Below, piece after piece: positions 37,823-56,900 of a stretch of DNA of 64,000 nt (position 1 is its first letter; each line of letters starts with the position of its first letter). Origin of the DNA: Moorella humiferrea (lineage in GTDB: Bacteria; Bacillota; DSM-521; Neomoorellales; Neomoorellaceae); NCBI RefSeq assembly GCF_039233145.1, contig NZ_CP136419.1:1896001-1960000 (forward strand), given 5' to 3'. The notes under the pieces are model-generated. The model was not told the DNA's origin and made no database searches. It saw only the letters and a program-made list of their open reading frames with translations. The translations under genes and the position numbers were made by a program.

Positions 37823-38551
37823 TTAATGTCCAAAGGCACAATACTGCTCATAACCCTCTAGACGGGCAATCCCGCTGATGGTTACCCCATAAAAGACGAC
37901 GGGTTTTACTCCCATTACCCCGGATAAAGTGTCATTGACGGCCGTGGTGCCGGTGGCTAAAACCAAATCGCTCCAGGCGACTATTTCCGGCGTACGGCTG
38001 GCATCTTCTATCAAAACCCCGTCTTTGCGCCGGCCGACATTATCGGGATCGAGATCTGTCACCCGGATGGGGAAATGGGCGGCCAGGGCCGCGATCATGG
38101 CCGGCTGCAGGCCGATAAAGGCAATGCGCGGACTGCCGAAACGCTCCCGGACATAATCTACCAGGCGGGCGGCACAGAGTCCCGGTTCCCGGTCGCGGCA
38201 GTGAATGGTCCTATCAATTAGCTTTAAATGGCGCATCACGGCGTTCAAGGTGGCGATAAAAACGGCCCTTTCGTAATTGGTGCATAGGGGTATAGCCAAA
38301 ACTTCCTTGAGAGTCCCCTGGTAGTTGCCGGGCATGTCGGTATACGCTTGGCCGCAAGAACCCAAAAACGTGGCCTGGATCATCGTTTCCTTGCCCTTCA
38401 GAAGGGGAAAATCCTGGCGTTCCGGCCGACCGATAGCTTCTTCCGGTGTCAACGGCCTGGCGCTGACAATTTTTACCTCTTCATCGCCGCTGAGGTTCCT
38501 CGTTTCTATCATTCGGCGGAATTTTTCCCTTATGCTTTCTAAAAACTGCAT
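37823..38551 (-). CDS. DUF364 (Rossmann-like, heavy-metal chelation) protein
   Basis: A 242-residue cytoplasmic protein of the DUF364 family, whose members are predicted to chelate metals. Recognisable parts are LCTNYERAVFIATLNAVM, RIAFIGLQPAMIAALA, VTDLDPDNVG and LATGTTAVNDTL. It is the first gene of the operon with modA (13 bp gap) and modB, so it may handle molybdenum or tungsten after uptake. Its exact role is unknown. Confidence 0.88.
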   Translation of the reverse strand: MQFLESIREKFRRMIETRNLSGDEEVKIVSARPLTPEEAIGRPERQDFPLLKGKETMIQATFLGSCGQAYTDMPGNYQGTLKEVLAIPLCTNYERAVFIATLNAVMRHLKLIDRTIHCRDREPGLCAARLVDYVRERFGSPRIAFIGLQPAMIAALAAHFPIRVTDLDPDNVGRRKDGVLIEDASRTPEIVAWSDLVLATGTTAVNDTLSGVMGVKPVVFYGVTISGIARLEGYEQYCAFGH

Positions 38552-38591
38552 TCAAACCTACTCCCTTCCCAGATTATATAAACGCCAAAGT

Positions 38592-38622
38592 AAAACCCCG
38601 CCTCTACTGGGGAGCGGGGTCT
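38592..38622 (-). terminator. Leader terminator of the DUF364-modAB operon
   Basis: Stem ACCCCGC/GCGGGGT (38594-38620) followed on the reverse strand by TTTTA, between the riboswitch and the DUF364 start; the likely expression platform. Confidence 0.75.
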
Positions 38623-38651
38623 TATGGCAAAAATAATGCGCTAATATAGTC

Positions 38652-38768
38652 ACCCCCTCCTTTTCGATACCTGGAAGGCATACCAGTTTCCCGGTATACC
38701 CCGTGGACCAAAAGGTCCAGGCCTACCCGCCATGGGATCTTTCCTTTAGGACAGGTTGGCTCGGAGGA
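38652..38768 (-). promoter_or_regulatory. Moco-type (molybdenum/tungsten cofactor) riboswitch
   Basis: Reverse-strand leader with the Moco RNA end motifs: CCTCCGAGCC at the 5' side and GCCTTCCAGGTATCGAAAAG followed by GAGG at the 3' side, closing a P1 CCTCC/GGAGG stem. Internal hairpins GGACC/GGTCC and a GGTATACCGGGAAACTGGTA helix with a GGGAAAC loop lie between. It precedes a molybdate-type transport operon, which fits. The rest of 38552-38871 holds only two terminators. Confidence 0.85.
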
Positions 38769-38837
38769 TAAAGTTATTTGCATACGTTCTTAATGTATTA
38801 TTCGCGCTAAAAAAACAAATTCCTGCCAGCATGGGCG

Positions 38838-38866
38838 AAAAAACCCCCGGGATAAACCCGGGGGAG
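38838..38866 (-). terminator. Terminator of the Hdr-MetFV operon
   Basis: Stem CCCCCGGG/CCCGGGGG (38844-38851 with 38857-38864) followed on the reverse strand by TTTTTT, directly after metF. Confidence 0.92.
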
Positions 38867-38871
38867 CCGAT

Positions 38872-39795
38872 TTAATCCACTTTGGGGCGGGGGTAGAGGC
38901 CGGCTTCCTTGACGATGGTGGGGATGATATCTTCCCACATGACGGCCATGATGTGCACGCCGGCTACACCTTCAATGTTTCTTAGGTGTTTTATCTGTTC
39001 AACGCATATCGCCACCCCTTCGGCTTTGGGGTCGGCGGCTTTTTCCATGCGGCTGACGATTTCCTCGGGAACGATCATCCCGGCCACCGACTGCTGCATA
39101 TACCGGGCGGCTTTGGCGGATTTTAAGGGCATGACGCCGGCGATGATGTAGGCCCTTTTGTGAAGCCCCCTTTCCCTGACCATGGCCATGAACTTCTCGA
39201 AACGCTCCATGTCGAAGATGCATTGGGTCTGGATGAAGTCGGCCCCGGCGTTGATTTTCTTTTCCAGCCGTAAGACCCGAAACTCAAAGGGATCGGCGAA
39301 GGGGTTGGCAGCGGCGCCTATGAAGAAGCGGGGCTCATTACCTTTCAGCTCTTCCCCGCAGGCGAACTTTTTCTCGTCCCGCAGGTCCTTGACGATTTTG
39401 ATGAGCTGGATGGAATCTATGTCATGGACGTTTTTGGCCGTTGGGTGGTTGCCAAAGCTTTGGTGGTCGCCCGAGAGGCAGAGGACGTTGCGCATACCTA
39501 AACTGTAGGCGCCCAGAAGGTCGCTCTGCAGGGCGATCCTGTTGCGGTCCCGGACCGTCATCTGGATGATGGGTTCGCCCCCGCTTGCAAGGACGTGGAC
39601 GCCGGCGGCGATGCTGGAAAGGCGCACGATGGCCGTCTGGTTGTCCGTCAAATTCATGGCATCCACGTAGTCTTTAAGGAGGGCGGCATGTTTTTTTATC
39701 CCTTCGGGGTTGGCGTGTTTCGGCGGCCCTATTTCCCCGCTCACCACGAAATGCCCCTGGGAAAGGAGTCTTTCCAGTTTGCTTTCCGTCTTCAT
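38872..39795 (-). CDS. metF: Methylene-tetrahydrofolate reductase, large subunit
   Basis: A 307-residue TIM-barrel flavoprotein that reduces methylene-THF to methyl-THF in the Wood-Ljungdahl methyl branch. MetF motifs include FVVSGEIGPPKHANPEGI, NLTDNQTAIVRLSS, RNVLCLSGDH and GADFIQTQCIFDMERF. The ATG at 39795 gives the family start; the longer frame to 39855 lies inside metV. It overlaps metV by 4 bp and is the last gene of the operon. In acetogens it works with MetV and, in Moorella, with HdrABC-MvhD. Confidence 0.95.
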   Translation of the reverse strand: MKTESKLERLLSQGHFVVSGEIGPPKHANPEGIKKHAALLKDYVDAMNLTDNQTAIVRLSSIAAGVHVLASGGEPIIQMTVRDRNRIALQSDLLGAYSLGMRNVLCLSGDHQSFGNHPTAKNVHDIDSIQLIKIVKDLRDEKKFACGEELKGNEPRFFIGAAANPFADPFEFRVLRLEKKINAGADFIQTQCIFDMERFEKFMAMVRERGLHKRAYIIAGVMPLKSAKAARYMQQSVAGMIVPEEIVSRMEKAADPKAEGVAICVEQIKHLRNIEGVAGVHIMAVMWEDIIPTIVKEAGLYPRPKVD

Positions 39796-40463
39796 GCCAG
39801 CCTCACATCCTCTCGTACCACTTTGCGGGGACCGCCGTCCCGGGATTTGGACCAATCCTTGGGCGGCTGGATTTCCAGGAGGAGGTCGAGTTTACCGAGG
39901 GTCTTCAACCGGTCGTAGATGAGCTGCCAGGCGCAGGGGGTTTCCGGGTTGACCTCGCATTTGCCGTTCTGGGAGCCGCCACAGGGGCCGTTGAGAATGC
40001 TTTTGGAGCAGCGGATAACGGGGCAGATCCCCCCGGTTTTATAGAGGATGCACTCGCCGCAGAGGCCGCAGCGTTCTTCCCAGACGCCGTGCTCGATAGT
40101 TGCGCCGGCGAACTTGGTGTTTAAGGCCGGCACTACCCATTTAGGGTAGCGTTCGGCCAAAAACTGGACGCCGACGCCGCAGGCCAAAGAGATGATGGCG
40201 TCGATGTCGTCGGTTACATATTTAGCCAGCATGTCGACGTACTCCGGGTCGCACTGGCGGGTCAGGGTGACTTCCACCGTTTCCAGGGGATTGCCTTCCT
40301 TTTTCCTTAACATCCGCAAAGCAGCGGCTAGAATCCCCGTTTCCTTTTCGCCGCCGGCCAGGCACACGGTCACGCAGCCGCCGCAGCCGACCACCAGTAT
40401 TTTTTGCGCATCATTGATTAACCCTGCCACTTCGGCCAGGGGTTTAGCCTCGGCGATAATCAT
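39792..40463 (-). CDS. metV: MetV, Fe-S/zinc subunit of methylene-THF reductase
   Basis: A 223-residue partner of MetF. It contains an N-terminal VVGCGGCVTVC cysteine group and a C-terminal Cys array (CGLCGECILYKTGGICPVIR, then NGPCGGSQNGKCEVN) expected to hold a [4Fe-4S] cluster and zinc. It passes electrons to the MetF flavin. It overlaps metF and mvhD by 4 bp each, so MvhD-MetV-MetF are coupled and probably form one module. Confidence 0.95.
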   Translation of the reverse strand: MIIAEAKPLAEVAGLINDAQKILVVGCGGCVTVCLAGGEKETGILAAALRMLRKKEGNPLETVEVTLTRQCDPEYVDMLAKYVTDDIDAIISLACGVGVQFLAERYPKWVVPALNTKFAGATIEHGVWEERCGLCGECILYKTGGICPVIRCSKSILNGPCGGSQNGKCEVNPETPCAWQLIYDRLKTLGKLDLLLEIQPPKDWSKSRDGGPRKVVREDVRLA

Positions 40464-40939
40464 TCCCCTTCACCTGCTTTCGTCGAATTTCCTTTATGGC
40501 CTTCGCCTTCTTTTGGGGGAGGAGGATAGTTTTTGTTCAACGGGCTAGGGCCGAGTTTCTTAATCCGTTCGGTGAACTCCTGGGCGATTTCCGCAAAGCG
40601 CGGGCCCATGGCCGCCGAGAGGTTGTACATCTCCAGGCGTTCGCCGCCGATGCCGATCTCGTCCAGGATTTTTTTGGCTTGCTTAACCCGGCGCTTGGCC
40701 CGGTAATTACCTTTCAAGAAATGGCAGTCGCCCTCCATGCAGCCCAGGACGTAGACACCGTCAGCGCCCTTTTCAAAGGCCTCCAGCAGTACCCGCACGT
40801 CGGTCTTCCCGGAGCAGGGCATTTCAATCACGCGGATATTGGCCGGGTACTGCAGCCGTAAAGACCCGGCCAGGTCGGCGGCCGAGTAGGCGCAGTAGTA
40901 GCAGCAGAAGGCGACGATTTTCGGCTCAAAATCCTGCAA
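40460..40939 (-). CDS. mvhD: MvhD-like hydrogenase/Hdr iron-sulfur subunit
   Basis: A 159-residue [2Fe-2S]-type electron-transfer protein. MvhD motifs are IVAFCCYYCAYSAADLAG, VIEMPCSGKTDVRVLL and GVYVLGCMEGDCHFLKGNYRA. In methanogens and Moorella it links an electron donor to HdrA. It starts 3 bp after hdrA. The C-terminal 20 residues are Pro/Glu/Lys-rich and probably disordered. A second MvhD domain is fused to the other HdrA of the operon. Confidence 0.93.
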   Translation of the reverse strand: MQDFEPKIVAFCCYYCAYSAADLAGSLRLQYPANIRVIEMPCSGKTDVRVLLEAFEKGADGVYVLGCMEGDCHFLKGNYRAKRRVKQAKKILDEIGIGGERLEMYNLSAAMGPRFAEIAQEFTERIKKLGPSPLNKNYPPPPKEGEGHKGNSTKAGEGE

Positions 40940-40942
40940 AGG

Positions 40943-43900
40943 TTACACCTCCCCGAAGAGGCCGGCCACCTTGGCCAGCAGCTGGTCGTCTTTGTAGAAC
41001 TGGAGCTGGATGGCCTTGGCCGGGCATTCGCCGGCGCAGGTGCCGCAGCCCATGCACTGGACGGCGTCGATTTCGGCCACGCTACGCTCGTTGATGCGCG
41101 GTACACTGTAGGGGCAGACCCGGACGCAGGTCAGGCAGGCCGCGCATTTGTTTTCCTCGACCACGGCCACCACGCCGCCCACCATGAGGTTCTCCCGGCT
41201 TAAAATGGTGCAGGCCCGGGCCGCCGCCCCTTGGGCCTGGGCTATGGCCTCGGCGGCAAACTTGGGGGCATGGCCGGCCCCGCAGAGGAATATGCCGGCC
41301 GAAGGAAAGTCTATGGGCGCAAGCTTGGCGTGGGTCTCGACATAGAACTTATCTTCGTTAAGGGGCAGCTTCAACATGGTGGCCAGTTGTTCTATACCTT
41401 GAGGCGCTACGGCACCCGTGGCTAAAACCAGCTGGTCGGGCCAGAGGACCAGGTCTTTGCCGGAATCGGGATCGGTGATGAGCACTTCCAGAAGGCCGAT
41501 ATCCCGGCGCCGTACCTCGGGGGGCTTTTCCGGGTCGTAGTGGATAAAGATGACGCCTTCTTCCCTGGCCCGGCGGTAGTAATCTTCCATGAAGGCATAG
41601 GTGCGGATGTCCCGGTAAAGGACGTAAACCGCCGTTTCCGGGCTCCTTTCTTTTATGGCCAGGGCGTTTTTAATGGTCTGGGCGCAGCAGGTGCGGCTGC
41701 AGTAGGGTCGCTCTTCATCCCGGGAGCCCACGCACTGGATGAAGACCACCTGTTTGTTTTTGTGTGCCTCCCACTTGCCGGCGGCAAGGCTTTGTTCCAG
41801 TTGGGTGTTGGTTAGCACCCGTTCGTCCTGGCCGTAGAGGTAGGATGTGGTTGTTACCTCCCGGCTGCCGGTGGCGACAATCACCACGCCGTGTTCCAGT
41901 TTCAGGGTGCGGCGAACATGTTCTTTGCCCGGTTCTGCTACTGAGATGGTGGTGGTAAAATGCCCCTGGTGGCCGCCGAAGTCTTCTATCTTGGCGTTGG
42001 TGAACACGGTGATGCGCTTATTTTCCCGGACCCGGGCGATGAGGTCTTTTAACAGGGCCTGGAGGTCGTCGCCTTCTAGTGTTTTCCTTAAATTGCGCAC
42101 CTGACCTCCCAGCTCATCTTCCCGTTCGACGATGATGGCCTCATACCCCTGGTCGGCGATATTTAATGCCGCCGTGAGCCCTGATATGCCGCCGCCGATG
42201 ATTAAGGCCTTCTGGACGACGGGCACGGGCTTAAGGTGCAGGGCTTCATGGCGCTTGACCTTGGCCACGGCCATGCGTACCAAATCGATGGCTTTTTCTG
42301 TGGCCTTGTCCGGTTCGTTGCGGTGCACCCAGGAACACTGGTCGCGGATGTTGGCCATTTCAAAGTAAAAGGGGTTTAAGCCGGCCTCCTTCAAGGCTTC
42401 CCGGAAAAGGGGCTGGTGGGTGCGGATGGTGCAGGAGGCCACTACCACCCGGTTTAAGTTGTATTCGTGGATGGCTTCTTTTATCTTGTTCAAGGTGTCC
42501 TGGGAGCAGGTGTAGAGGTTGTCCTCGGCATGGACGACGCCGGGAAGTTTGGCCGCAGCTTCGACTACCGCTTTGACGTCGACGACCCCGGCGATGTTGA
42601 TGCCGCAGTGGCAGATGAAAACCCCCACCCGCGGTTCTGCGTGACTTACGTCTTTTTCCGGCGGGTACTCTTTGGGTTTAACCAGGGTGTTGCGCCCGGA
42701 AGATATTGCGGCCCCGGCCAGGGCGGCGGCGGCGCTGGCGTTGACCACCGTCTCCGGTATGTCCCGGGGGCCTTGAAATACCCCGGCCACATATACGCCC
42801 GGCCGGGTGGTCGCCGCCGGCTCCATTGGCAGGGTCCGGGCAAAGCCGTAAGGGTTAAGCTCAATGCCGGCGGCGGCCGCCAGTTTTTCCGCCCCGGCCG
42901 GGGGCTTCACCCCTACCGCCAGGACCACCATGTCGAATTCTTCCCGGTTTATCCGGCCGTCGGCGTAGTACTGGATGGTGAGGTTTTTGGTCTTCGGGTC
43001 TTCTTCCACCCGGGAGATCATGGCCCGCACGAAACGTACCCCGGCGGCTCTGGCCCCTTCGACGTAACGGTCGAAGTTCTTGCCGTAGGCGCGGATGTCG
43101 AGGTAAAAGATGGTCGGCTCGATATTGGCGTCGTGCTCTTTGGCGATAAGGGCTTCTTTGGTGGAATACATGCAGCAGATGGCCGAACAGTAGGGGCTGC
43201 CTTCCCCATCAATGTCCCGGGAGCCGACGCACTGGATGAAGGCCACCTTTTTCGGCGGTCTGCCGTCGGACGGCCGCAGTACATGGCTTTCCGTGGGACC
43301 GGTGGCGCTAAGGAGGCGCTCAAATTCTAAACTCGTGACTACATTGGCGTAGTAGCCGTAACCGTACTCCCCGGCTAAAGCGGCATCAAACAGCTCGTAC
43401 CCCGGGGCCAGGACCACGGAGCCGACCTGGAGTTTGATGACCTTCTCTTCCTGCCAGTGCTCGATGGCCTTTTTCTTACAGGCGGTTTCGCACTGGAGGC
43501 ATTCGGAACAGATGCCGCAGTTTAAGCACCTTTTGGCTTCTTCTATGGCTTCCTCCGGGGTAAAGCCCTGGTAGACTTCGCGGAAATCCCGTATACGTTC
43601 GGAGGCCGTGGCCATGGCCTGTTTTTGGCGCCTGCCGGGGAAGGGCACGACATTGGGCGGCGGGTCCAGCCTGGGTTGTTTTTCTTTCTTACGGCCGGCG
43701 GCCAGGTCTTTTCCTTCCAGGTAGCGTTTTACGCTTTCGGCGGCTTCGTGGCCGCCGGCTACGGCTTCGACCACCGAGGCGGGACCGCTCACTACATCCC
43801 CGCAGGCGAAAATGCCAGGTATAGCTGTGGCCAGGGTTACGGGATCGGCGGCGATTAGCCCCCGGCTGGTAGTTATGCTACCGTCTTCTTTTAAGAAAGA

Positions 43901-45406
43901 AAGATCGGCGGCTTGGCCGATGGCTAAGATTACGGTGTCGGCGGCTAGAACCGTGGTGACTTCCGGGTTATACTGGGGATTGAAACGGCCTTGTTCGTCG
44001 AAGACCCGGGTGCACGCCATGAGCTCTACACTGGTGACCCGGCCGTCTTTCCCCAGGAAGCGTTTGGGTCCTAAGGAGGGATGGATGATGACGCCTTCTT
44101 CCAGGGCTTCTTCGACTTCCCAGGGGTGGGCGGGCATCTCTTCCCTCTTTTCCAGGCAGGCCAGGTGGACTTCTGCGGCCCCCAGGCGCCTGGCCGTGCG
44201 GGCGACGTCTATGGCTACGTTGCCGCCGCCGATAACTACCACCCTTTTGCCTACTTTAGGCCTGCCGCCCAGGGCCGTTTCCCGTAAGAATGATACGCCG
44301 GGTAGTATCCCTCCTAAATCGGCTCCGGCGATATTTAACATGCGGCTCTTTTGCAATCCGGTGGCGATGATGACGGCGTCGTATTCTTTTTTTAGTTCGG
44401 CCAGGGTGATGTCTTGGCCGACAGTGATGTTGCCGATAAATTTTACCCCCAGGGCGAGGATGCGTTCCGTTTCCCGCTCTACTACCTCCAGGGGCAGGCG
44501 GTACCGGGGTATGCCGGCCCGCAGCATGCCGCCGGGTTTGTCCAGGACGTCGTAGATGGTGACCTGAAATCCTTCCAGGGCCAGGTCCTGGGCGGCGGTA
44601 AGACCCGCAGGACCGGCGCCGATGATGGCTACCTTTTCTTCTTTGGCGGGTATATCCGCTTTTTGTTGTTTTTCGCGGGCGGCTTCTTCTTCCCAGCCGT
44701 AGTCGTAGGCCGCCCTCTTCAATGTGGCTATGGCGATGGGGTCGTCGTACTGCCCCCGGTTGCATTCAGTCTCACAGGGGTGGTGGCAGATGCGGCCGCA
44801 GATCCCGGCAAAGGGCATGCGCCGGTGGATGACTTCTAATGCTTCGGCGAATTTCCCCTGGGAGATCAGGGCTACGTACCCTTGAGCGTTGGTCCCCGCC
44901 GGGCAGGCGCTGCGGCAGGGCGGAGTGCCCCTCTTGGTGATGAGGTATTTATTGGGCACCGCCTGGGGAAACATTTTGTGGATGGCTTTCCTGCTGCCCA
45001 TATTCTGGTTGTATTCGTTGGGGACTGTTACCGGGCAGACCTGTTCGCAGTCGCCGCAGGCCGTGCATTCTTCGCTATTGACGTAGCGGGGGCTTTGGCG
45101 CACATAGGCAGTGAAGCTGCCTTTTTCTCCTTCTATTTTTTCTATACTGGCCAGGGTGTGCAGGCGGATGTTGGGATGGGTAAGGGTGTCCGTCATGCGG
45201 GGTCCCAGAAGACACATGGCGCATTCGTTGGTGGGAAAGGTCTTGTCCAGCTGGGCCATGCGCCCGCCTAAAGATGAGCTTTCAGTCACCAAGTGTACCA
45301 GGTAGCCGGCATTGGCTAGATCAAGGGCTGCTTGCATCCCGGCTATGCCGCCGCCTGCTACCAGTACCGCCCCTGTGGCTTTTTCTTTGTCCTGCTGTGC
45401 TTGCAT
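40943..45406 (-). CDS. hdrA: Three-flavin HdrA with NfnB/GltD-like insertion
   Basis: A 1487-residue fused heterodisulfide reductase A-type protein. Domains in order: FAD site GGGIAG (18-23); CxxCxxC cluster (114-124); GltD/NfnB N-terminal Fe-S region (Cys164-215); second FAD site GAGPAG (263-268) and NAD(P) site GGGNVAID (393-400); CLNCGICSECLQCETAC (627-643); HdrA middle part (FIQCVGSRD 723, CCMY 744); a second HdrA copy (ICHCG 931, FAD site GGGISG 1071, FIQCVGSRD 1222); and C-terminal double ferredoxin (1421-1461). It is far longer than archaeal HdrA. The insertion suggests NAD(P)H use and flavin-based bifurcation; inference. Confidence 0.93.
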   Translation of the reverse strand: MQAQQDKEKATGAVLVAGGGIAGMQAALDLANAGYLVHLVTESSSLGGRMAQLDKTFPTNECAMCLLGPRMTDTLTHPNIRLHTLASIEKIEGEKGSFTAYVRQSPRYVNSEECTACGDCEQVCPVTVPNEYNQNMGSRKAIHKMFPQAVPNKYLITKRGTPPCRSACPAGTNAQGYVALISQGKFAEALEVIHRRMPFAGICGRICHHPCETECNRGQYDDPIAIATLKRAAYDYGWEEEAAREKQQKADIPAKEEKVAIIGAGPAGLTAAQDLALEGFQVTIYDVLDKPGGMLRAGIPRYRLPLEVVERETERILALGVKFIGNITVGQDITLAELKKEYDAVIIATGLQKSRMLNIAGADLGGILPGVSFLRETALGGRPKVGKRVVVIGGGNVAIDVARTARRLGAAEVHLACLEKREEMPAHPWEVEEALEEGVIIHPSLGPKRFLGKDGRVTSVELMACTRVFDEQGRFNPQYNPEVTTVLAADTVILAIGQAADLSFLKEDGSITTSRGLIAADPVTLATAIPGIFACGDVVSGPASVVEAVAGGHEAAESVKRYLEGKDLAAGRKKEKQPRLDPPPNVVPFPGRRQKQAMATASERIRDFREVYQGFTPEEAIEEAKRCLNCGICSECLQCETACKKKAIEHWQEEKVIKLQVGSVVLAPGYELFDAALAGEYGYGYYANVVTSLEFERLLSATGPTESHVLRPSDGRPPKKVAFIQCVGSRDIDGEGSPYCSAICCMYSTKEALIAKEHDANIEPTIFYLDIRAYGKNFDRYVEGARAAGVRFVRAMISRVEEDPKTKNLTIQYYADGRINREEFDMVVLAVGVKPPAGAEKLAAAAGIELNPYGFARTLPMEPAATTRPGVYVAGVFQGPRDIPETVVNASAAAALAGAAISSGRNTLVKPKEYPPEKDVSHAEPRVGVFICHCGINIAGVVDVKAVVEAAAKLPGVVHAEDNLYTCSQDTLNKIKEAIHEYNLNRVVVASCTIRTHQPLFREALKEAGLNPFYFEMANIRDQCSWVHRNEPDKATEKAIDLVRMAVAKVKRHEALHLKPVPVVQKALIIGGGISGLTAALNIADQGYEAIIVEREDELGGQVRNLRKTLEGDDLQALLKDLIARVRENKRITVFTNAKIEDFGGHQGHFTTTISVAEPGKEHVRRTLKLEHGVVIVATGSREVTTTSYLYGQDERVLTNTQLEQSLAAGKWEAHKNKQVVFIQCVGSRDEERPYCSRTCCAQTIKNALAIKERSPETAVYVLYRDIRTYAFMEDYYRRAREEGVIFIHYDPEKPPEVRRRDIGLLEVLITDPDSGKDLVLWPDQLVLATGAVAPQGIEQLATMLKLPLNEDKFYVETHAKLAPIDFPSAGIFLCGAGHAPKFAAEAIAQAQGAAARACTILSRENLMVGGVVAVVEENKCAACLTCVRVCPYSVPRINERSVAEIDAVQCMGCGTCAGECPAKAIQLQFYKDDQLLAKVAGLFGEV

Positions 45407-45439
45407 TTTTGCGTCTCACCTTCCTTTCTCCTGGGAAGC

Positions 45440-46303
45440 TCATGCTAACCCATACTGCCGCAAAAGGGGAAAGGGGTCGATTAGGTGTTTTTTTAGCCAG
45501 GGGGTTGGGTCCAGCCCCAGGCTTAGACCGAGGATCTCTGTTATGAAAAAGACAGGCAGCGGTTCTTCATCCTTTGTTTGGCGGCTTTCCAGGTTGGTGT
45601 GGCATAAGGGGCAGGCGGTGACTATGGCCTTCGCTCCGGCATACCGTGCGGCTTCTACTATTTTCCCTACCAGTTCTTCTACCAGTTTTGGCTGGGGTAT
45701 GGAGAGGCTGGCGCCGCAGCATTCGTTTTTATGGCTCCAGCTCACCGCTGTCGCCCCGCATAAGGTTAACAGCCGGTCCATCAGTCGGGGCTGTTCGGGA
45801 TTGGCTTCAAAGCTGGCTACCTTCGGTGGCCGGGTTAAAAGGCAGCCGTAATATGACGCCAGGGGAATTCCTCCTAATTTTTTAGTGACCTTCCTTTCCA
45901 GGGCGGTAAAAACGCCGGGTTCGGCCAGTACCTCGATTACATGCCGTACTTTGATTGTGCCCCGGTACTCTCGCCCCATGATTTCTTTGGCCCTTTGCCC
46001 CAGTTCTTTTGCTTCCCGGCTTGCTGTCGCCATAAAGTTTTGGGTGGTCCTTAGGGTGTTGTAACAGGCGGCGCAGGGTACCAACAGGTCGTTGCCGGCG
46101 GCTTCGGCCAGTATCAGGTTGTACAGGGGTAGAGCATGGCTTAAATTACTGTCTAGGGAGTGGCCCGAGGTGGCCCCGCAGCAGCTCCAGTCGTTTAGCT
46201 CTTCTAGCTCTACCTCCAGGGCTTTAAAGACGCCTTCGGTGGAGGCGGAATATTCGGCCGAGGTGGCGTGCAGGGAACAACCAGGGTAATATGATAGTTT
46301 CAT
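45440..46303 (-). CDS. hdrB: HdrB-like subunit (CCG domains)
   Basis: A 287-residue protein starting MKLSYYPGCSLH with two CCG cysteine domains: NDWSCCGATSG in the first and KNECCGASLSI plus ACPLCHTNLE in the second. In HdrB these bind noncubane clusters that reduce a disulfide or other acceptor. The ATG at 46303 overlaps hdrC by 4 bp; the longer frame lies within hdrC. Acetogens lack CoB-CoM disulfide, so the actual acceptor is unknown. Confidence 0.94.
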   Translation of the reverse strand: MKLSYYPGCSLHATSAEYSASTEGVFKALEVELEELNDWSCCGATSGHSLDSNLSHALPLYNLILAEAAGNDLLVPCAACYNTLRTTQNFMATASREAKELGQRAKEIMGREYRGTIKVRHVIEVLAEPGVFTALERKVTKKLGGIPLASYYGCLLTRPPKVASFEANPEQPRLMDRLLTLCGATAVSWSHKNECCGASLSIPQPKLVEELVGKIVEAARYAGAKAIVTACPLCHTNLESRQTKDEEPLPVFFITEILGLSLGLDPTPWLKKHLIDPFPLLRQYGLA

Positions 46304-46854
46304 CTTCGCTCCTCCTTGGACCCTTCCCACATGGCCCGGAAGCGGCCTTTGTTTTTTATTCCTCCGCTAAATATGGGCAGCTTCCCCCGGCGCAGCATCT
46401 TAAAGCCCAGGGGGGCGTCCTGGAGGTAGGTCCTTGTCTTTAGCTTGTACGCTGCCAGCATCCCCAGTTCATGCACCCGTCCCCTGCTTTTTACCGATGC
46501 CAGAAAGGCCTGGTGGAAGGCGGCTACTTCCGGCAGGGCCGGTACTGCCCCTCTGGCCAGGGCCCGTTGTTTTAAGGCATCGTTGATGGCGGCGATATCG
46601 ATGCCGTTGGGACAGCGGGATACGCATGTCCGGCAGGCGGCGCATTGCCAGATGGTTTTGCTTTTTATGAGTTCTTCTTCCAATCCGAGCTGCACATAGC
46701 GGACCACTTGATGGGGCATGAGGTCCATGGCCATGGCCACCGGACACCCCGCTGTGCATTTGTGGCACTGGTAGCAGCGGTTAACAATCTGCCCGCTCCC
46801 TGCGGCTACTTCCGCCGCCAGCTCCTGAGACGGGATGGTTTGCTGCCCGGCCAT
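46300..46854 (-). CDS. hdrC: HdrC-like ferredoxin subunit
   Basis: A 184-residue protein with two [4Fe-4S] motifs, CYQCHKCTAGCPVA and CAACRTCVSRCPNG, which move electrons between HdrA and HdrB. The ATG at 46854 has an excellent AAAGGAGGAAG site; the open frame to 46959 adds an unrelated stretch. It is translationally coupled to hdrB. A 107-bp gap to the preceding oxidoreductase gene is the largest in the operon and could hide an internal promoter. Confidence 0.94.
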   Translation of the reverse strand: MAGQQTIPSQELAAEVAAGSGQIVNRCYQCHKCTAGCPVAMAMDLMPHQVVRYVQLGLEEELIKSKTIWQCAACRTCVSRCPNGIDIAAINDALKQRALARGAVPALPEVAAFHQAFLASVKSRGRVHELGMLAAYKLKTRTYLQDAPLGFKMLRRGKLPIFSGGIKNKGRFRAMWEGSKEERR

Positions 46855-46961
46855 CCCCCTTCCTCCTTTCTCTTGCCGAAAAAGAGAGGTACTGCCTTTC
46901 GCCGGTACCTCCCTTTTCATTAGCATATTAGCTTCTTTTTTGAAAAAACAAGCTGCCATTT

Positions 46962-48170
46962 TCAGACCAGGGAGATTTCGTCGAAACGCGTCTGCTGTTT
47001 AATAGCACCGGCCATACGGTCCATTATTTCCCTTACCAGGGTAAATGGCTTGCCGTGGACTTGAGCAGCGACAGCCGCTCCTGTTTCTGGGGAATAAATC
47101 ACCTTAACCGCGATTTCCCCGACCGTCAACATATAAGCCCCGCCTGGTTGCCGATTTTGCAAAAGACCCACGGCACCAAAGGCTTTGTTGCCTATGGCCA
47201 GGGAGAATTTATCTATAATCGCTTCCTTCGAACGTTTAAGGTTAAAAAGATTGGCGGCGGCAATGCGGGCTTCGCGGCCCCCTTCTAATGCCAGTCTGAC
47301 CCCGGTGCCTCCCGGTCCGGGCAAATTTTCCTTAATGGCACAATCACCCACGGCAAAGATATTTTCATCTGTTGTGCGCATATACGCGTCAACAAGAATA
47401 CCTGCGTATTCATGGGTTGCCAGGCCGGCCGCCCGCGCCAGGGCAGTATTCGGTATTATACCTGTTGCCAGGATCACTGTATCGGCAGGTATTACCTGGC
47501 CGTTGGTGAGCTTCACTCCTTCAACCCGTTTATTGCCGTATAATTCTTCCACCCCGGTGGCAGTTATAATATTGATGCCGCGCTGGCGGAGATTATCTTC
47601 CATGAGATTACCAATCTCTTCGTCAAAGGCCCACTCCAGAAGACGGGGCCGATGTTCTACCAGAGTAACATTCAGCTGTCTGGTGGCGGAGCATGCCTCG
47701 GCAAACTCTATGCCCGTCGACCCGCCGCCTACAATGACCACATCCGTCGCGGAATCTAGATGGACGGAGAGGTTTTGTAAATAAGGGTATTCCTTTTTAA
47801 AAGAGAAAACACCATATAAACCGTCATCTTTAAAAGGCGGCGGTTGGGGCAAAGAACCGGTAGCCAGAATTAATTTATCATACTCTATTTCTTCACCACA
47901 GGTAGTGACGACACATTTCCCCTTGCGGTCGATGTCCGTCACTTCATCGATTATCAGCTCAATTCCCTCGTCGTAGAGGCGATCGTCCCGTAAGATATTT
48001 TCGTGGATGGCACCCCTGGCGCAATTGTAAGTCAGACACCAGGGGATTAATGCCCTGAGCCCCTTGCGCAGCAGACCGATTTTTTTCTCCCCATAATAGC
48101 GCCTGGCTGCCATGGCCGCCGTATATCCACAAATACCCCCACCGACAACGAGCACATCGACCTGCTTCAT
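46962..48170 (-). CDS. FAD/NAD(P)-dependent disulfide-type oxidoreductase
   Basis: A 402-residue two-dinucleotide-binding flavoprotein of the NADH oxidase/CoA-disulfide reductase superfamily. FAD site VVGGGICGYTAAMAAR, ATG motif KLILATGSLPQPP, NAD site VVIVGGGSTGIEFAEA and a C-terminal FAVGDCA motif are present. A Cys near residue 45 (IPWCLTYNCARG) lies roughly where these enzymes keep a redox Cys, but the context is atypical. It lies inside the Hdr operon, 21 bp after the HdrA-MvhD fusion, so it may feed NAD(P)H electrons to that complex. Confidence 0.88.
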   Translation of the reverse strand: MKQVDVLVVGGGICGYTAAMAARRYYGEKKIGLLRKGLRALIPWCLTYNCARGAIHENILRDDRLYDEGIELIIDEVTDIDRKGKCVVTTCGEEIEYDKLILATGSLPQPPPFKDDGLYGVFSFKKEYPYLQNLSVHLDSATDVVIVGGGSTGIEFAEACSATRQLNVTLVEHRPRLLEWAFDEEIGNLMEDNLRQRGINIITATGVEELYGNKRVEGVKLTNGQVIPADTVILATGIIPNTALARAAGLATHEYAGILVDAYMRTTDENIFAVGDCAIKENLPGPGGTGVRLALEGGREARIAAANLFNLKRSKEAIIDKFSLAIGNKAFGAVGLLQNRQPGGAYMLTVGEIAVKVIYSPETGAAVAAQVHGKPFTLVREIMDRMAGAIKQQTRFDEISLV

Positions 48171-48191
48171 GGCTGCACTCCTTTCTGTTTT

Positions 48192-51100
48192 TTAACCTAG
48201 GCAACCGGCCAAATTCCTGTTATTATCCGGCATTGGTGGAGGCAAACGCCATACCTTTACCGTTTCGGCATCCATTCCAATTTCTCCTAGTATTTTCCGG
48301 ACGCGACGCCAGGCCTGCTCCTGGCAAAACATGGGCTCAGGCATTGCTTTTCTGCTACCGAAGGCCCTAGCCGGACGGAAATGGCACTGTCCTTCGACGC
48401 ATCCCGTGAGGATGATTTCCGCAGCCCCGGCCTCAAGGGCCTTCAGCACCTCCAGGGTACCGATCCGGCTTAAACACGGCACCTGGATAACTGACACGTC
48501 TTTCTGGCATTCCCATCCAACAGCGTTTTCAAAATTGGCATAAGCACAGTAGCTGCAGGTAAAGACAATGGTAGAAGAATTCGTCCGGTTAGTTTTGGCC
48601 AGGGTTTTGATGCCCGCTTCCACTTCTTCATGGGAATATCCGGTAAGGGTAATAGCCCTGGCCGGGCAGGCCGCCACACAAGCGCCGCAGCCCCGGCAAA
48701 GCAGGGGGTCAATATAAGAGCGGTGTTCTTGTATTGCCGGAGCGCCGTAGGGACATACGCGCACGCAGGTAAGGCAGGCCGCACAATCTCCTTCTACCCT
48801 GGCTACCCTCGCGGGCAGTAATCTTCGTTCCCGCAGCACTAAAGCCGCTGCCTTCACCGCTGCAGCCCGAGCCGAAGCGATTGTTTCTTCCAGGTTTTTC
48901 GGGCTTTCTGCCAGGCCGCAGGTGAAAATGCCCGGGACAGCCGTCTCTACCGTCTTTAGTTTGGGGTGTTCGGAAGCAAAGAAACCGTTATCGTCTAAAG
49001 AAACATTGTATAATGAAGCCACCTCCCGGCTATCAGCACGCGGTTCCATTCCCGTTGACAATATCAGGAGATCGGCTTCAATGGTGATAACTTCATCCAG
49101 GATGGAATCCTTAACCCGAATCTGTACTTTGCCATCCGTTCCCGTATTTAAAGGCGCAACTTCCGGAGGAGTATCGGGATTGTAACGCAAAAACAGGACA
49201 CCTGCCGCCCGGGCCGCTTCATACCATTGCTCCTGCAAACCATAGGTCATAATATCCCGGTTGATTACGTAAACCTTTACGTCAGGATTCCTTCTTTTAA
49301 GTTCCAGGGCGTTTTTTATAGCGGTACCGCAGCAAACCCGGCTGCAATAAGGATGACCGTCGTCGCGGGATTCTACACACTGGATAAAAACAACTTGCTG
49401 CAGATTATCTGCTGACAATTTACCGGCCCCAAGGGCTTCTTCCAGTGCCAGACCGGTCATTACCGCCTGATGATTGCCGTATAAGTACTGCCGGGGCTTT
49501 TTCTCTTCAGCTCCGATGGCAATGACAGTTACGCCGTGGTCAATAACTTCCCTGGTTTTATCTTCTATTTCTATTTCAGTGGTAAAATTGCCCGGTCCGC
49601 CGCTTACAGCCCTTACGCAGGCGTTAAGATGGACACGAATGCGGGGATGCTCCCTTACTTGCCCTATAAGTTCATCCAGATATTCCTTAACATTAACGCC
49701 CTGTAAAGTATGGCGCAAGCGCCGGGCATTACCTCCCAGTATTCCTTCCTTTTCTACAAGGTGGACATCACAACCAAGTTCGGCCAGGGTCAAAGCGGCC
49801 GTCATGCCCGCCACCCCGCCGCCGACTACTAAAGCGGCGGGTGTTATCGTTTCTTCTTCTACAGTGACTGGAGGTGCTGCCCCAATCATGGCCGCAGCCG
49901 TACCCAACAATTCTTTTGCCTTTTGGGTGGCACGGTCTTTGCGTCCATTGTAGAGACGGGCGGCGTGTTCAAGGACATTGACTGTTCGGGCTGCATTGGC
50001 CGGTAGCCCGGCCTGTTCCAGGAATGTATTGACCATGGGTTCCAGGGCGCGCGCGCTGCAGGCCGCCAACACCAAACCATTTAAGCGGTGTTCTTTAACG
50101 GCCCGCATCAGGTGCTCCTTTCTCCCTTCGTCACATAAGTTTATTTTTTCAACGACAGCCACCCCGGGTAATTTACGGCTGTACTCCTCCAGTTCATGTA
50201 AATCCAGACCTGTCGATAAGATGTCGCATGTACAGATAAAGACGCCCATCCGCAAGGCTTCCCCAGTGTCGTTTATCACCGGACAGCTAGTCTTTACCGC
50301 TGCAGTCCGGGAAGGAAAACCCGTTTTCTTTAACCAGGAAGCGCAGGCAGCAGCCGCAGCCGAACCCTGGTTGACGGCATCGATTACATCACACGGACCG
50401 CCAAAGGCCCCGCCGAAAAAGATTCCTTCCCTTGTGGTAGTCGAAGGATTGAGGGAAGTAAACTGGCAAAAACCATATGGTTCGACAGCAATACCAAAGG
50501 CGCCGGCAAGGTCCCGGGCGCCATCGGGCGGCCGCAGGCCTGTTGCCAGAACGGCCAGGTCAAATTCTTCGAAGTTAACCCGACCGTCTTCTTCGACATA
50601 GCGGATTAAAAGCCTTGACTCTCCGGGATACTGAACAATGCTGTGAATACGAGAGCGCACAAGTCTTAACCCGTACTTTTTCCGGGCTTTATCAAGATAT
50701 TCCTGGTAGGTCTTGCCGTAGGTGCGTAAATCCATGTAAAAAATTGTTATTTTAGGTAAGGGTAGATTTGAGGCGACGGCACTTTCATAAAGCATCATGG
50801 CTTCCTTTAAAGCATACATGCAGCATACCGCCGAGCAGTAAGGCGCACCACCGGCGGGGTCACGAGAACCGGCGCACTGGATAAAAGCCACCTGCTCCAC
50901 GGGTGCGTCATCTGGGAAACGACGGGGATAGCCATTGGCTGCCAATTGCCGCTCCAGCTCCAGGCCGGTCAAAACACCGTCGTACCGGCCGTAACCATAA
51001 CGAACTTTTAAAACCGGAGGCAAATATTCCTCATAACCCGGGCAAAGGATGACGGCTGCAGCTTCGATGACTTCCTCCCGCCCATTCCGGGAAAGGTAAA

Positions 51101-51425
51101 GATAATAATGGCCGGGCTCGCCGCTGACTTTTTTTACTTCGGCACCGGTTAAAAGTACAATTCTATCTTCACCAGCCAGCCTCAAAAAGTAGGGGGAACG
51201 TATACAGAAGAAGCCATCCTGGGGCGTCAAGGCGCAGGCGCTGCAGTCGTTGGTGGGAAAAGTTTTGGGTAGGACTGCCAGCTTACCTCCCGGCCGATCT
51301 GCGCGTTCTATTAAGATGACCTTATAATTGAGGCGGGAAAGATCAATGGCCGCCTGCACGCCGGCGATACCAGCCCCAAGGACTGCTACCGGCAGGATGC
51401 TTTCTTTGTCCATATCCCTTTTCAC
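48192..51425 (-). CDS. HdrA-type protein fused to a C-terminal MvhD domain
   Basis: A 1077-residue protein with two HdrA-like flavin modules and a fused electron-input domain. FAD sites are GAGIAG (17-22) and GGGVAG (535-540); HdrA cysteine motifs FIQCAGSRD (181) and FIQCVESRD (680) each precede CC pairs; a double ferredoxin lies at 881-921; and an MvhD domain (FTCSYCAYANFENA, then LTGCVEGQCHF) fills 952-1060. It lacks the N-terminal cluster and NfnB-like insertion of the other HdrA. It overlaps the HdrD-like gene by 4 bp. Confidence 0.92.
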   Translation of the reverse strand: MKRDMDKESILPVAVLGAGIAGVQAAIDLSRLNYKVILIERADRPGGKLAVLPKTFPTNDCSACALTPQDGFFCIRSPYFLRLAGEDRIVLLTGAEVKKVSGEPGHYYLYLSRNGREEVIEAAAVILCPGYEEYLPPVLKVRYGYGRYDGVLTGLELERQLAANGYPRRFPDDAPVEQVAFIQCAGSRDPAGGAPYCSAVCCMYALKEAMMLYESAVASNLPLPKITIFYMDLRTYGKTYQEYLDKARKKYGLRLVRSRIHSIVQYPGESRLLIRYVEEDGRVNFEEFDLAVLATGLRPPDGARDLAGAFGIAVEPYGFCQFTSLNPSTTTREGIFFGGAFGGPCDVIDAVNQGSAAAAACASWLKKTGFPSRTAAVKTSCPVINDTGEALRMGVFICTCDILSTGLDLHELEEYSRKLPGVAVVEKINLCDEGRKEHLMRAVKEHRLNGLVLAACSARALEPMVNTFLEQAGLPANAARTVNVLEHAARLYNGRKDRATQKAKELLGTAAAMIGAAPPVTVEEETITPAALVVGGGVAGMTAALTLAELGCDVHLVEKEGILGGNARRLRHTLQGVNVKEYLDELIGQVREHPRIRVHLNACVRAVSGGPGNFTTEIEIEDKTREVIDHGVTVIAIGAEEKKPRQYLYGNHQAVMTGLALEEALGAGKLSADNLQQVVFIQCVESRDDGHPYCSRVCCGTAIKNALELKRRNPDVKVYVINRDIMTYGLQEQWYEAARAAGVLFLRYNPDTPPEVAPLNTGTDGKVQIRVKDSILDEVITIEADLLILSTGMEPRADSREVASLYNVSLDDNGFFASEHPKLKTVETAVPGIFTCGLAESPKNLEETIASARAAAVKAAALVLRERRLLPARVARVEGDCAACLTCVRVCPYGAPAIQEHRSYIDPLLCRGCGACVAACPARAITLTGYSHEEVEAGIKTLAKTNRTNSSTIVFTCSYCAYANFENAVGWECQKDVSVIQVPCLSRIGTLEVLKALEAGAAEIILTGCVEGQCHFRPARAFGSRKAMPEPMFCQEQAWRRVRKILGEIGMDAETVKVWRLPPPMPDNNRNLAGCLG

Positions 51426-52654
51426 TCCTTGTCCCCCCTTATGAGGGCGTCGGCTACCAGCTCGACGATGTTTTTGGCTTTAACATCAAGACGATAATGG
51501 CGGCACAAATCATTCAACTGATCTACGCAATTATGGCAGGGCGTGGCGATAATCTTTGCTCCCGTACGCTGGATCTGTTCAACTTTTACCCTGCCTTTGG
51601 CCATACGCTCTCCCCCAAATTCGCTTAAAGAAAGGAGGCCGCCCCCGCCGCCGCAGCAGTAATTGTTTTCACGATTGGGCGTCATCTCCCGAAAATCGGT
51701 AACGGCCGCCTGCAATACCTGCCGTGGTTCTTCAAAGATCCCTTCTTTGCGGCCTAGGTTACATGGATCGTGATAGGTCACCGGTTCGGTATTGCGCGAG
51801 GGATTAAGGCGAAGGCGGCCGTCCTCCAGGTATTCAGCCATAAGCTGGACGATACTCCGCACGCTAAAAGGCAATTTGTGCCCCAGCCACTGTTCGGGTC
51901 CCCAGCGAATGGCGCGAAAGGCATGCCCGCATTCGGTCATGATCAGTTCCTGGCACCCGAGGCGTTCCATCTCGTCGGCCAACCGCTGTACCAGCACGGC
52001 ACCGGCCCGGTCGTCGCCCGAAAAAAGGGCATAGTTGGTGGCGTCCCAGTAATGGCTTGGAAGGGTCCAGCTCTCTCCGGCCACATGGAATACTTTTGCT
52101 GCCGCTAAAATGGAAAGAGGAAAAAATTTAGCTTCCCGCGGGTTTATAACGTATAGCACCCGGGCGCCTTTTTTATCAACTGGAATCACCGCTTCCGGAC
52201 CAAATTCCGCCTGGAGTTCTTCCTGCATCCAGTCCAGGGTATCAAGGTAATCCTCCTGGCTGATCCCCATGTTGTTGCCTGTTTCCAAAGCCAGGTCTAC
52301 CACTTTCTGCAGGTTTTCGGGAACGCGCCCAATGGCCGCCAGTTCCGAACGCAGGGCCCGGACCAGGTCGCCCATATTTATGCCGGCCGGGCAATAAACC
52401 GTGCAACGTCCGCACATGGTACATAACCAGATCATGTCTGAAGCCAGCAATCGTTCTGCCATTCCCATGAGGAGCAGGCGCACCATTTTACGGGGATCTA
52501 CAGGAGCACCTATGTTACCGGTAGGACAGCCGCCGGTACACACACCGCAGGCCAGACAAGTTTGCAGGCTGGCTGCGCCCAGTATTTGGAATAATTTTGA
52601 AGTTAATTCTTGCGATTTAAATTCAAATGTTTTCTCAACAGGTAATGCTGTCAT
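51422..52654 (-). CDS. HdrD/HdrBC-like Fe-S oxidoreductase
   Basis: A 410-residue protein combining an HdrC-like double ferredoxin at the N-terminus (CLACGVCTGGCPTGN and CTMCGRCTVYCPAG) with an HdrB-like C-terminal part (HDPCNLGRKEG, NYCCGGGGGLLSL, TPCHNC). The first CCG half is weaker (TECGHAFRAI). It probably works with the adjacent HdrA-MvhD fusion as a catalytic or electron-output subunit. It is 36 bp after the MerR gene. The acceptor is unknown. Confidence 0.9.
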   Translation of the reverse strand: MTALPVEKTFEFKSQELTSKLFQILGAASLQTCLACGVCTGGCPTGNIGAPVDPRKMVRLLLMGMAERLLASDMIWLCTMCGRCTVYCPAGINMGDLVRALRSELAAIGRVPENLQKVVDLALETGNNMGISQEDYLDTLDWMQEELQAEFGPEAVIPVDKKGARVLYVINPREAKFFPLSILAAAKVFHVAGESWTLPSHYWDATNYALFSGDDRAGAVLVQRLADEMERLGCQELIMTECGHAFRAIRWGPEQWLGHKLPFSVRSIVQLMAEYLEDGRLRLNPSRNTEPVTYHDPCNLGRKEGIFEEPRQVLQAAVTDFREMTPNRENNYCCGGGGGLLSLSEFGGERMAKGRVKVEQIQRTGAKIIATPCHNCVDQLNDLCRHYRLDVKAKNIVELVADALIRGDKE

Positions 52655-52690
52655 AAGTCACACCCCTGATAATTCAAGGTAACTCTTCAC

Positions 52691-53011
52691 TTAACCTTGA
52701 TGATGTGGACAATATTTATTCTTCCTTTGCCAGCAGGGGCGTTTTGTTCCCACCGGATCATTTGAGGGGGTACATGTGCACTTGCCATCCTGCCAGCAGG
52801 GATACGCGGTGAGATAACGGGGCAAATCAGCCAACCGGTAACGCTTGCTGTCAACAAGATCCTTAATCAGCATTAACCGCTGTAAATCCAGTTCCGAATA
52901 GCAACGCCGCCCGTTCTTTCTCTTCGGCATGACCAAACCCTTTTCTTCCCAACGCCGCAAACGTTGAGAAGAAATATCTAAAACCTTTATAACCATACCG
53001 ATGGGATACAC
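52691..53011 (-). CDS. MerR-type regulator with Cys-rich tail (first gene of the Hdr operon)
   Basis: A 106-residue protein with an N-terminal MerR HTH (YPIGMVIKVLDISSQRLRRW, then EEKGLVMPKRKNGRRCYS) and a C-terminal cluster of cysteines (YPCWQDGKCTCTP, RPCWQRKNKYCPHH). The Cys/His array could bind an Fe-S cluster or metal, making it a redox or metal sensor. The start is GTG at 53011. It is co-directional with and 36 bp from the HdrD-like gene, so it probably controls the operon. A paralogue is divergent. Confidence 0.87.
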   Translation of the reverse strand: MYPIGMVIKVLDISSQRLRRWEEKGLVMPKRKNGRRCYSELDLQRLMLIKDLVDSKRYRLADLPRYLTAYPCWQDGKCTCTPSNDPVGTKRPCWQRKNKYCPHHQG

Positions 53012-53042
53012 CCGTCTCTTTCGCCCCGCTTTACCTTGTCTT

Positions 53043-53072
53043 AATTACATCATATTTATTGTTCTTTATTTT
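53043..53072 (-). promoter_or_regulatory. Promoter of the MerR-Hdr-MetFV operon
   Basis: Reverse strand TTGACA, 17-bp spacer, TATGAT, about 35 bp before the GTG at 53011. It lies in a 220-bp AT-rich divergent region between the two MerR genes; no clear MerR-type palindrome inside the spacer was recognised. Confidence 0.65.
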
Positions 53073-53231
53073 GTCAACTAACCTATAATATTTTTTATAA
53101 CTTTTTTGTTTAGATATAGTTAAATATAGTTTTCACATTAGGCAAAGTGATACTTGATATTATATGTTAAGATAACATAAAATAATTGTAGCAGGTTTTA
53201 TATACGTTTATTTTTAAATGAGGCGGTTGCA

Positions 53232-53627
53232 ATGGCTGAACAAATGTTATACACCATCAGTGTAGTAGCCGAGTTGCTGGGCATCCAGCCGGGTACCCTG
53301 CGCGTCTGGGAAAGGCATAAACTCATCCGGCCTGCACGCAAGAATGGGCGGCGCCTTTACTCCAATAATGACTTAAAAAGGCTACGCTTCATCCAAAAGC
53401 TCATCGACAAAGGTTTCAATTTGAATTCCATTAAGCATTACCTGGCCTTTTATCCTTGCTGGCTCTATGAAGACTGCCCGGCCTGCGCCCGTAAAACTGA
53501 ACGCATAGACTGCGCCAAGCCGTGTTGGAAGGAAGAGGGTACCTACTGCCTGATCTCCTTTGAGGATCCTTCCCTGTGTAAAAATTGCCCCTATAAGAAA
53601 CAGGAAAAAGGCAAGAACAATGAGTAA
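53232..53627 (+). CDS. MerR-type regulator with Cys-rich tail (divergent paralogue)
   Basis: A 131-residue paralogue of the MerR protein at 52691. The HTH (YTISVVAELLGIQPGTLRVW) and wing (KNGRRLYSNNDLKRL) are followed by nine cysteines (YPCWLYEDCPACARK, CAKPCWKEEGTYC, CKNCPYKK). The positions YPCW, PCW and YC match the paralogue, so the cluster is conserved and likely functional. It is divergent from the Hdr operon and ends near a strong hairpin. Confidence 0.88.
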   Translation: MAEQMLYTISVVAELLGIQPGTLRVWERHKLIRPARKNGRRLYSNNDLKRLRFIQKLIDKGFNLNSIKHYLAFYPCWLYEDCPACARKTERIDCAKPCWKEEGTYCLISFEDPSLCKNCPYKKQEKGKNNE

Positions 53628-55008: not shown

Positions 55009-55145
55009 GGAATCACTCCCTTCTAGTTGCCATTATACCATTATTCCATTATCTATGTCTCCAGGACCGATATAAAATATTAGTAGGAAGCGGCCTGAAA
55101 AATTGAACAAGGACAGCATTAAAGAGAAAAACGAGGAAGAAATTG

Positions 55146-55177
55146 CAAAAAAATTACCCCTGGGACTATTCCCCAGG
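55146..55177 (-). terminator. Terminator of the YedE/DUF3343/TusA operon
   Basis: Stem CCTGGG/CCCAGG (55159-55164 with 55172-55177) followed on the reverse strand by AATTTTTTTT, 24 bp after the TusA stop. Confidence 0.8.
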
Positions 55178-55200
55178 AGTTTCATATGAAAGAAGCCAAT

Positions 55201-55419: not shown

Positions 55420-55447
55420 AAAAATATCTCCTCCTTTTGTCCTGATG

Positions 55448-56877: not shown

Positions 56878-56900
56878 TTGGCATTCCCCCGCTTATTACG

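Follow-up and report, generated by a model that had tools for sequence, protein, structure and literature searches.

Do ten genes that stand in a row on one strand encode one complex? The window analysed here, a stretch of 64,000 nucleotides of Moorella humiferrea, a heat-loving bacterium of acetogen type (contig NZ_CP136419.1, positions 1,896,001 to 1,960,000), carries on its reverse strand a gene for a MerR-type regulator (merR1), genes for an HmcF/TmcB-like iron-sulfur protein, a second HdrA protein (HdrA2) and an NAD(P)H-type flavoprotein, and then hdrC, hdrB, hdrA, mvhD, metV and metF, the genes of a methylenetetrahydrofolate reductase (MTHFR) of the heterodisulfide reductase (Hdr) type. 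The original prediction had read this order as one operon for an enlarged flavin-based electron-transfer complex. Our analysis points instead to two units, very probably joined by a lineage-specific event in which an intact type IV MTHFR operon was copied behind a MerR-flanked promoter. The parts are ordinary and the join is unusual.

A DNA search of the window's own genome (G000, a single contig of 2,671,946 bases, 99.62% complete) with window positions 38300-48400 returned a second 8.1-kb match at G000:C1:1255864-1263957. The duplicated segment in the window (38829..46911, reverse strand) is 99.78% identical to it by blastn over 8095 columns, ragged ends included; with exact shared ends at 38829 and 46911, it measures 8.08 kb and holds hdrC-hdrB-hdrA-mvhD-metV-metF together with the terminator. 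The other copy stands behind acsE and an acsD-type gene (identities by NCBIfam), which we take to be the location of the operon in M. thermoacetica as well, and the flanks of the two copies differ on both sides. All six frames are intact in both copies. That a whole type IV MTHFR operon has been duplicated behind another Hdr module is well supported in the assembly. A segment of 8.08 kb with the entire operon would have been copied from behind acsE to a position where it follows, in like orientation and at a distance of 50 bp, a resident unit of four genes: merR1 and the genes for the HmcF-like protein, HdrA2 and the NADH-type flavoprotein.

The two copies differ by 14 coding substitutions, 10 synonymous and 4 replacing, and by 1 bp in the terminator stem. 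The replacing sites are MetV 91, MetV 141, MetF 268 (counted along the 327-residue open reading frame, ORF) and HdrA 97; the copies can be told apart by Ile91/Val91 and Tyr141/His141 in MetV and by Ser97/Asn97 in HdrA, the window copy having MetV Ile91 and HdrA Ser97. The five nearest congeners sided unanimously with one copy at 7 of the 14 sites, which placed 3 changes on the window copy and 4 on the canonical copy; the other 7 sites were not polarised by these congeners. Judged from the sequences, the duplication is most likely recent. Four or fewer replacements among 14 substitutions have a probability of P = 0.0003 under a crude 3:1 neutral ratio, and because the window copy accounts for at least two of the four, their small number does not imply constraint on that copy alone. 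As for how the copy arose, a retro-copied transcript, with ends at the hairpin and the terminator, was considered and rejected, since the shared stretch extends nine bases beyond the T run of the terminator, which makes a copy at the DNA level more likely. As to traces of insertion, a loose TGGCAG...TTGTTTTTT similarity is all that the flanks have in common. No transposase was recognised by eye among the ORFs around the canonical copy (L042 and L043). An IS4-family transposase (L044 2327-3574) lies about 19 kb from the window copy and so does not adjoin it, in a search that covered part of the window's ORFs.

Comparison with 10 other members of the genus (two of them, G007 and G008, 84% and 58% complete) bears on the age of the two halves. 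The metF gene is present twice in the M. humiferrea genome and once in each of the 10 congeners, where it adjoins the acs-side hdr genes. An 801-base stretch across the junction was matched whole in none of these relatives, which match its sides separately or one side only. The order hmcF-hdrA2 was found in all 10 congeners, with an intact flavoprotein gene next to it in nine, G007 retaining only a match to residues 312-398. merR1 was matched at nine of the congener loci (partially in G006 and G007), the contig of G008 beginning inside hmcF, and merR2, a divergent neighbour of merR1, was 88-91% identical at the 8 of 10 loci where it was found, being at least as conserved as the adjoining resident genes. 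Behind the resident unit, neither metF nor metV was found in the fetched stretches, about 5-11 kb past the flavoprotein gene, of any of the 10 congeners; the upstream module and metFV stay together in none of them. The occurrence of the hmcF-hdrA2 unit without adjacent metFV indicates that the resident unit already existed before the join. By inspection, 6 of the 10 congeners (G001, G003, G007, G008, G009 and G010) have a hairpin with a T-rich tail after the flavoprotein gene. In G002 the resident unit has as its neighbour, on the opposite strand, a different and distant hdrBC-mvhD-hdrA set.

All ten genes were recovered by an ORF check where they had been predicted, on the reverse strand. The resident unit consists of merR1 (52691..53011; 106 residues, Cys-rich, PF13411 at 6.3e-14), the HmcF/TmcB-like gene (51422..52654), hdrA2 (48192..51425; 1077 residues) and the flavoprotein gene (46962..48170; 402 residues, Pyr_redox_2, PF07992 at 6.6e-62). 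The metFV half consists of hdrC (46300..46854, start set from the ribosome-binding site and the congeners; TIGR03290 at 2e-19), hdrB (likely start giving 45440..46303, in an ORF that opens at 46330; TIGR03288 at 2.2e-43, PF02754 at 1.2e-23), hdrA (40943..45406; 1487 residues), mvhD (40460..40939; PF02662 at 5.1e-52), metV (39792..40463; PF12225 at 2.3e-38) and metF (likely start giving 38872..39795, in an ORF that opens at 39855; PF02219 at 1.8e-40). The scores for the NCBIfam models of hdrC, hdrB and HmcF lie under the curated cut-offs, and these family assignments hold in kind. The predicted identities and the link to the Hdr-type MTHFR of Moorella were right, and with the likely starts applied the four 4-bp overlaps (51422-51425, 46300-46303, 40460-40463 and 39792-39795) and the single gap of more than 40 bp, 107 bp upstream of hdrC, were also borne out.

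The signals around these genes bear on how they may be transcribed. Upstream of merR1, the best sigma-70-like match (TTGACA-17-TATGAT, 11 of 12 positions; 53049..53077, reverse strand) is a consensus match only; a promoter had indeed been proposed there, at 53072-53043, which is 5-6 bp off, and the region holds as many matches as chance would give (10 observed, 10.2 expected). Downstream of metF, the intrinsic terminator described as strong is sound in form (38838..38866, reverse strand), with a stem at 38864-38844, a T run and a fold of -18.8 kcal/mol (z -2.4) that 3 of 200 shuffles equalled. A second terminator-like hairpin with a U tract occupies the 107-bp gap itself (46879..46911, reverse strand; z -4.3 and -5.3 in two foldings), and no promoter match was found within that gap. 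The duplicated segment and the 7-bp core stem of this hairpin start at one and the same base, 57 bp ahead of hdrC, and in both M. humiferrea copies the stem can be extended slightly with bases that precede the start of the duplication. Among the 12 upstream stretches folded, in which G002 and G009 contribute identical sequences, the hairpin was present before hdrC in both M. humiferrea copies and at the canonical locus of 9 of the 10 congeners (z -3.5 to -5.3), the exception being G007 (z -1.3); its pairing is kept while the sequences differ among congeners. A ten-gene transcript must therefore read through this conserved hairpin. Since the hairpin, at the canonical site as well, takes up the space where a promoter ahead of hdrC would have to lie, it is probably an attenuator there, between acsE and hdrC. 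The accessible parts of two studies report hdrCBA-mvhD-metVF as a transcription unit in M. thermoacetica (PMC8578096, PMC9430772), which fits the attenuator view. The acsE-hdrC hairpin with its U tract (L042 15879-15921 and the canonical loci of the congeners) perhaps sets the level of MTHFR against that of CODH/ACS.

What might the copy do? The metFV copy may add dosage, and read-through past the hairpin may couple part of MTHFR expression to the MerR-flanked promoter, the MetFV made from the copy working as at the canonical locus. A duplication that is real, neutral and transient is a sub-case of this explanation minus its regulatory part, with overlapping odds, and we give it a real though minor chance. 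Its presence in one of 11 genomes and its start 57 bp before hdrC, in a gap free of promoter matches, would suit such a history, while the six intact frames and the few replacement changes overall speak against it, the latter tempered by the replacements that fall on the window copy. With its fixed variants and its place behind another promoter, this natural second copy could help to show when more MTHFR is needed by the cell.

The copied operon has the features of an Hdr-type (type IV) MTHFR: metVF lies in a unit with hdrCBA and mvhD, and HdrA contains a GltD-like insertion. In M. thermoacetica the same six genes occur in the same order, with the GltD-type insertion and the Glu/Lys residues in HdrA; M. 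humiferrea differs by its second copy outside the acs locus and behind another Hdr module, which none of the 10 congeners searched possesses. In the M. humiferrea HdrA an inserted GltD/NfnB-like NAD(P)H domain occupies about 160-566, a GltA-type model matching 154-563 and solved Nfn chains 162-567. An NAD(P)H-binding GltD-like insertion has been described for the M. thermoacetica HdrA, and a Glu and a Lys near the flavin are given as markers of bifurcating flavins, in the available portion of PMC9430772. Both HdrA proteins of the window carry the two conserved pairs, E696/K750 and E1204/K1246 in HdrA and E158/K207 and E662/K704 in the two flavin domains of HdrA2. MetV had no match to solved chains at 1e-5. 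Enrichment and activities of the Hdr-type MTHFR have been reported for M. thermoacetica, as far as the accessible text of PMC8760232 and PMC8578096 goes, and for Sporomusa ovata the corresponding text of PMC9430772 states that MetVF did not remain with the Hdr subunits while pulldowns showed contact.

The resident unit appears to be built differently. For the protein first called HdrD-like, HmcF/TmcB-like is the better name; it has two [4Fe-4S] motifs and a single complete CCG motif (CX34CCX38CX2C at 298-376). HdrD, the partner of HdrE in HdrDE, is defined by two complete CCG domains; with one Pfam CCG stretch and one complete motif, an identity as HdrD was rejected. The best curated models are HmcF and TmcB of sulfate reducers, and the Moorella protein stays below both cut-offs (299.1 against 750 bits for HmcF, 266 against 735 for TmcB), in an operon without their membrane or cytochrome partners. 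Indeed, a Pfam search found no membrane or multihaem partner among the ten products, whose highest hydropathy was 1.87, at the FAD-binding start of HdrA2, compared with 2.92 for a neighbouring permease used as a yardstick. HdrA2 has two TrxR-like flavin domains, a ferredoxin domain and an MvhD-like tail; the fusion of MvhD that had been proposed is seen in part, as the tail gives only a partial Pfam FlpD match at residues 953-1021. The nearest solved chain to the flavoprotein is the NADH oxidase 6pfz (1.5e-39). From these features we infer that the resident unit may form a soluble and compact complex for flavin-based electron transfer: the flavoprotein would exchange electrons with NAD(P)H, HdrA2 would act as a branching hub with two bifurcating-type flavins, and the HmcF-like protein would replace HdrBC and serve a disulfide or quinone-like partner. 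The module would in this way link NAD(P)H both to that partner and to ferredoxin. The two modules would then not be subunits of one obligate complex. The FlxABCD-HdrABC NADH dehydrogenase/heterodisulfide reductase, attributed to Ramos et al. (2015), is said to combine an NADH-side flavoprotein, an HdrA hub and an HdrBC-type output; the resident unit is like it in outline and differs by its single flavoprotein of an unrelated type and by its HmcF-like protein.

Across the phylum, HmcF-like proteins were found in 44 of 398 genomes at 1e-60. We inspected 20 chosen stretches, one of which (the first locus of G194) yielded no HmcF row, and an hdrA gene lay beside the HmcF-like gene in 8 of them (G027 twice, G139, G372, G242, G024, the second locus of G352, and G390). 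In G027, G139, G372, G024 and G242 MvhD is mostly encoded near the pair, as are Flx-like or hydrogenase proteins. MvhD is joined by three Flx-like genes in G027 and G139 and by hydrogenase-like subunits at the second G027 locus, and in G372 HdrA is the only partner. 'Flx-like' is our own label for three genes, of which two score below cut-off in the sulfhydrogenase gamma/AsrB and beta/AsrA-like NCBIfam families and the third has no model. The Moorella locus differs from these by the MvhD-like tail on HdrA2 and by a single Pyr_redox_2 flavoprotein as NADH partner. In G242 a cassette of HdrA and three Flx-like genes occurs twice in tandem around the HmcF-like gene (L152 3458-9742 and 11216-17500). 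A quick tree of 35 sequences (midpoint root, branch supports not taken into account) placed the Moorella proteins beside a group in which the HdrA-linked proteins stand together with several that lack an hdrA neighbour, and away from some with neighbours that, by eye, appear membrane-bound.

We also surveyed 45 metV loci in 40 genomes outside the genus, chosen from the 114 metV-positive genomes among the 398 with a bias to closer relatives; G352 and G390 had first come into view through the HmcF search. The genes hdrC-hdrB-hdrA precede metV/metF at 22 of the 45 loci, where single absences are not firm, as some ORFs were lost to overlapping longer frames, about four loci were cut by contig ends and G270 had no called metV ORF. 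The search for the same gene order, which had been proposed as a check, gave a divided answer: the order is absent from the congeners, and comparable clusters, in which metVF stands with an HmcF-like gene, two HdrA genes and NAD(P)H-type genes, exist in five genomes of three families (G352, G194, G265, G288 and G390; loci L154, L172, L167, L168, L153). G352 and G194 have the order acsE-HdrA-three Flx-like genes-HmcF-HdrA-MvhD-MetV-MetF, G265 and G288 add HdrC- and HdrB-like genes after the first HdrA, and in the rearranged G390 the HmcF and second HdrA genes follow metF. The clusters adjoin acsE in four, where that side is covered. Each of the five genomes has one HdrA with both Glu/Lys pairs, and the GltD-bearing HdrA, which three of them have (G352, G390 and G194), has lost one residue of its second pair, which suggests a division of labour; both HdrA proteins of the Moorella locus retain both pairs.

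These clusters are the more promising lead. According to the accessible parts of PMC13391211 and PMC13040438, the second electron partner of type IV MTHFR is a long-standing gap in acetogen energy metabolism, and menaquinol is proposed as co-reductant in the latter. The HmcF-HdrA-MetVF clusters name a concrete candidate for the missing link, the HmcF-like protein. One bold reading would wire MetVF to two HdrA hubs through the HmcF-like substitute for HdrBC and the NAD(P)H-type flavoproteins, an arrangement that several lineages would keep as one cluster and that the duplication would have re-created in Moorella; the HmcF-like protein, not HdrBC alone, would then be the exit or entry for the co-substrate. 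We think this reading unlikely to hold. In Thermacetogenium phaeum, hdrA and an MvhD-like gene adjoin metVF while hdrBC come from elsewhere, so that changes of locus are known for the Hdr partners of MetVF; the portion of the paper available (PMC6895022) describes neither a duplication nor an HmcF-like gene. Our literature search on Moorella, HmcF and HdrA found no paper, and no description of an HmcF-two-HdrA-MetVF cluster was found in the literature searched, subscription papers being mostly outside it; the accessible text of a paper on Moorella genomes (PMC11328732) contained no mention of a metFV operon duplication.

Could the ten genes still be one functional operon, encoding an enlarged complex in which two HdrA hubs join NAD(P)H, methylene-tetrahydrofolate and another acceptor, the duplication having created an arrangement favoured by the joint action of the modules? 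The genes do share a strand, the gap between the halves is 107 bp, a good promoter match lies upstream and a terminator downstream, and the clusters of G352, G194, G265, G288 and the rearranged G390 are comparable. Several further points weigh against the two-unit reading: selection for joint action could itself explain why the copy stands on the same strand, right behind another HdrA module; the hairpin, as an attenuator, may permit a long transcript; metVF is clustered with HmcF-like and two HdrA genes in 5 of the 40 genomes surveyed; and the dosage or regulatory benefit of the copy is one that we infer. In addition, 11 of the 20 HmcF stretches have no hdrA neighbour, including the two closest by whole-length identity (G288 and G265), so that a role of the HmcF-like protein as substitute for HdrBC is not general. 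Within the genus, however, the claim of one operon and one enlarged complex was not supported: none of the 10 congeners has the order, each keeping its single metF at the acs-side hdr genes, the metFV half arose by recent copying, and a terminator-like hairpin separates the halves. Moreover, the outside clusters use HdrA types and NAD(P)H-type proteins other than HdrA2 and the Moorella flavoprotein, and they stand at the acs locus and are not duplicates. We consider the single operon improbable, and for this organism the case for an enlarged complex is weak. It is highly improbable that the second copy is an assembly artefact in which one operon was placed twice: repeats that are nearly identical over 8 kb do cause assemblers trouble, but the scattered substitutions and the 1-bp terminator difference, with changes on both copies when polarised, the different flanks on both sides of both copies and the single, nearly complete contig all argue against it. 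The join of two units that we favour carries a caution, in that gene order alone can suggest a complex though a recent duplication made that order.

Other features were noted nearby. merR1 forms a divergent pair of Cys-rich MerR-type regulators (52691-53627) with merR2 (53232..53627, forward strand; 131 residues, PF13411 at 1.1e-20), and the inverted repeats in the spacer between them are AT-rich candidates only. Directly behind the duplicate, a molybdenum/tungsten cofactor riboswitch (38641-38778) precedes a DUF364 gene, in a neighbourhood of genes that look by eye like oxyanion transport genes, and a cobalamin riboswitch lies at 20129-20249. An AbiEii-type nucleotidyltransferase gene and a small upstream gene with no Pfam match (54060-55008) are a possible toxin-antitoxin pair, and a TusA-type sulfurtransferase gene and a sulfur-transport (PF04143) gene (54718-57962) stand a few kb upstream of the operon. 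Elsewhere in the genome, at G000:C1:813000-818000, another hdrA-like frame with an in-frame TGA possibly encodes a selenocysteine-containing HdrA, and similar rows occur in several congeners.

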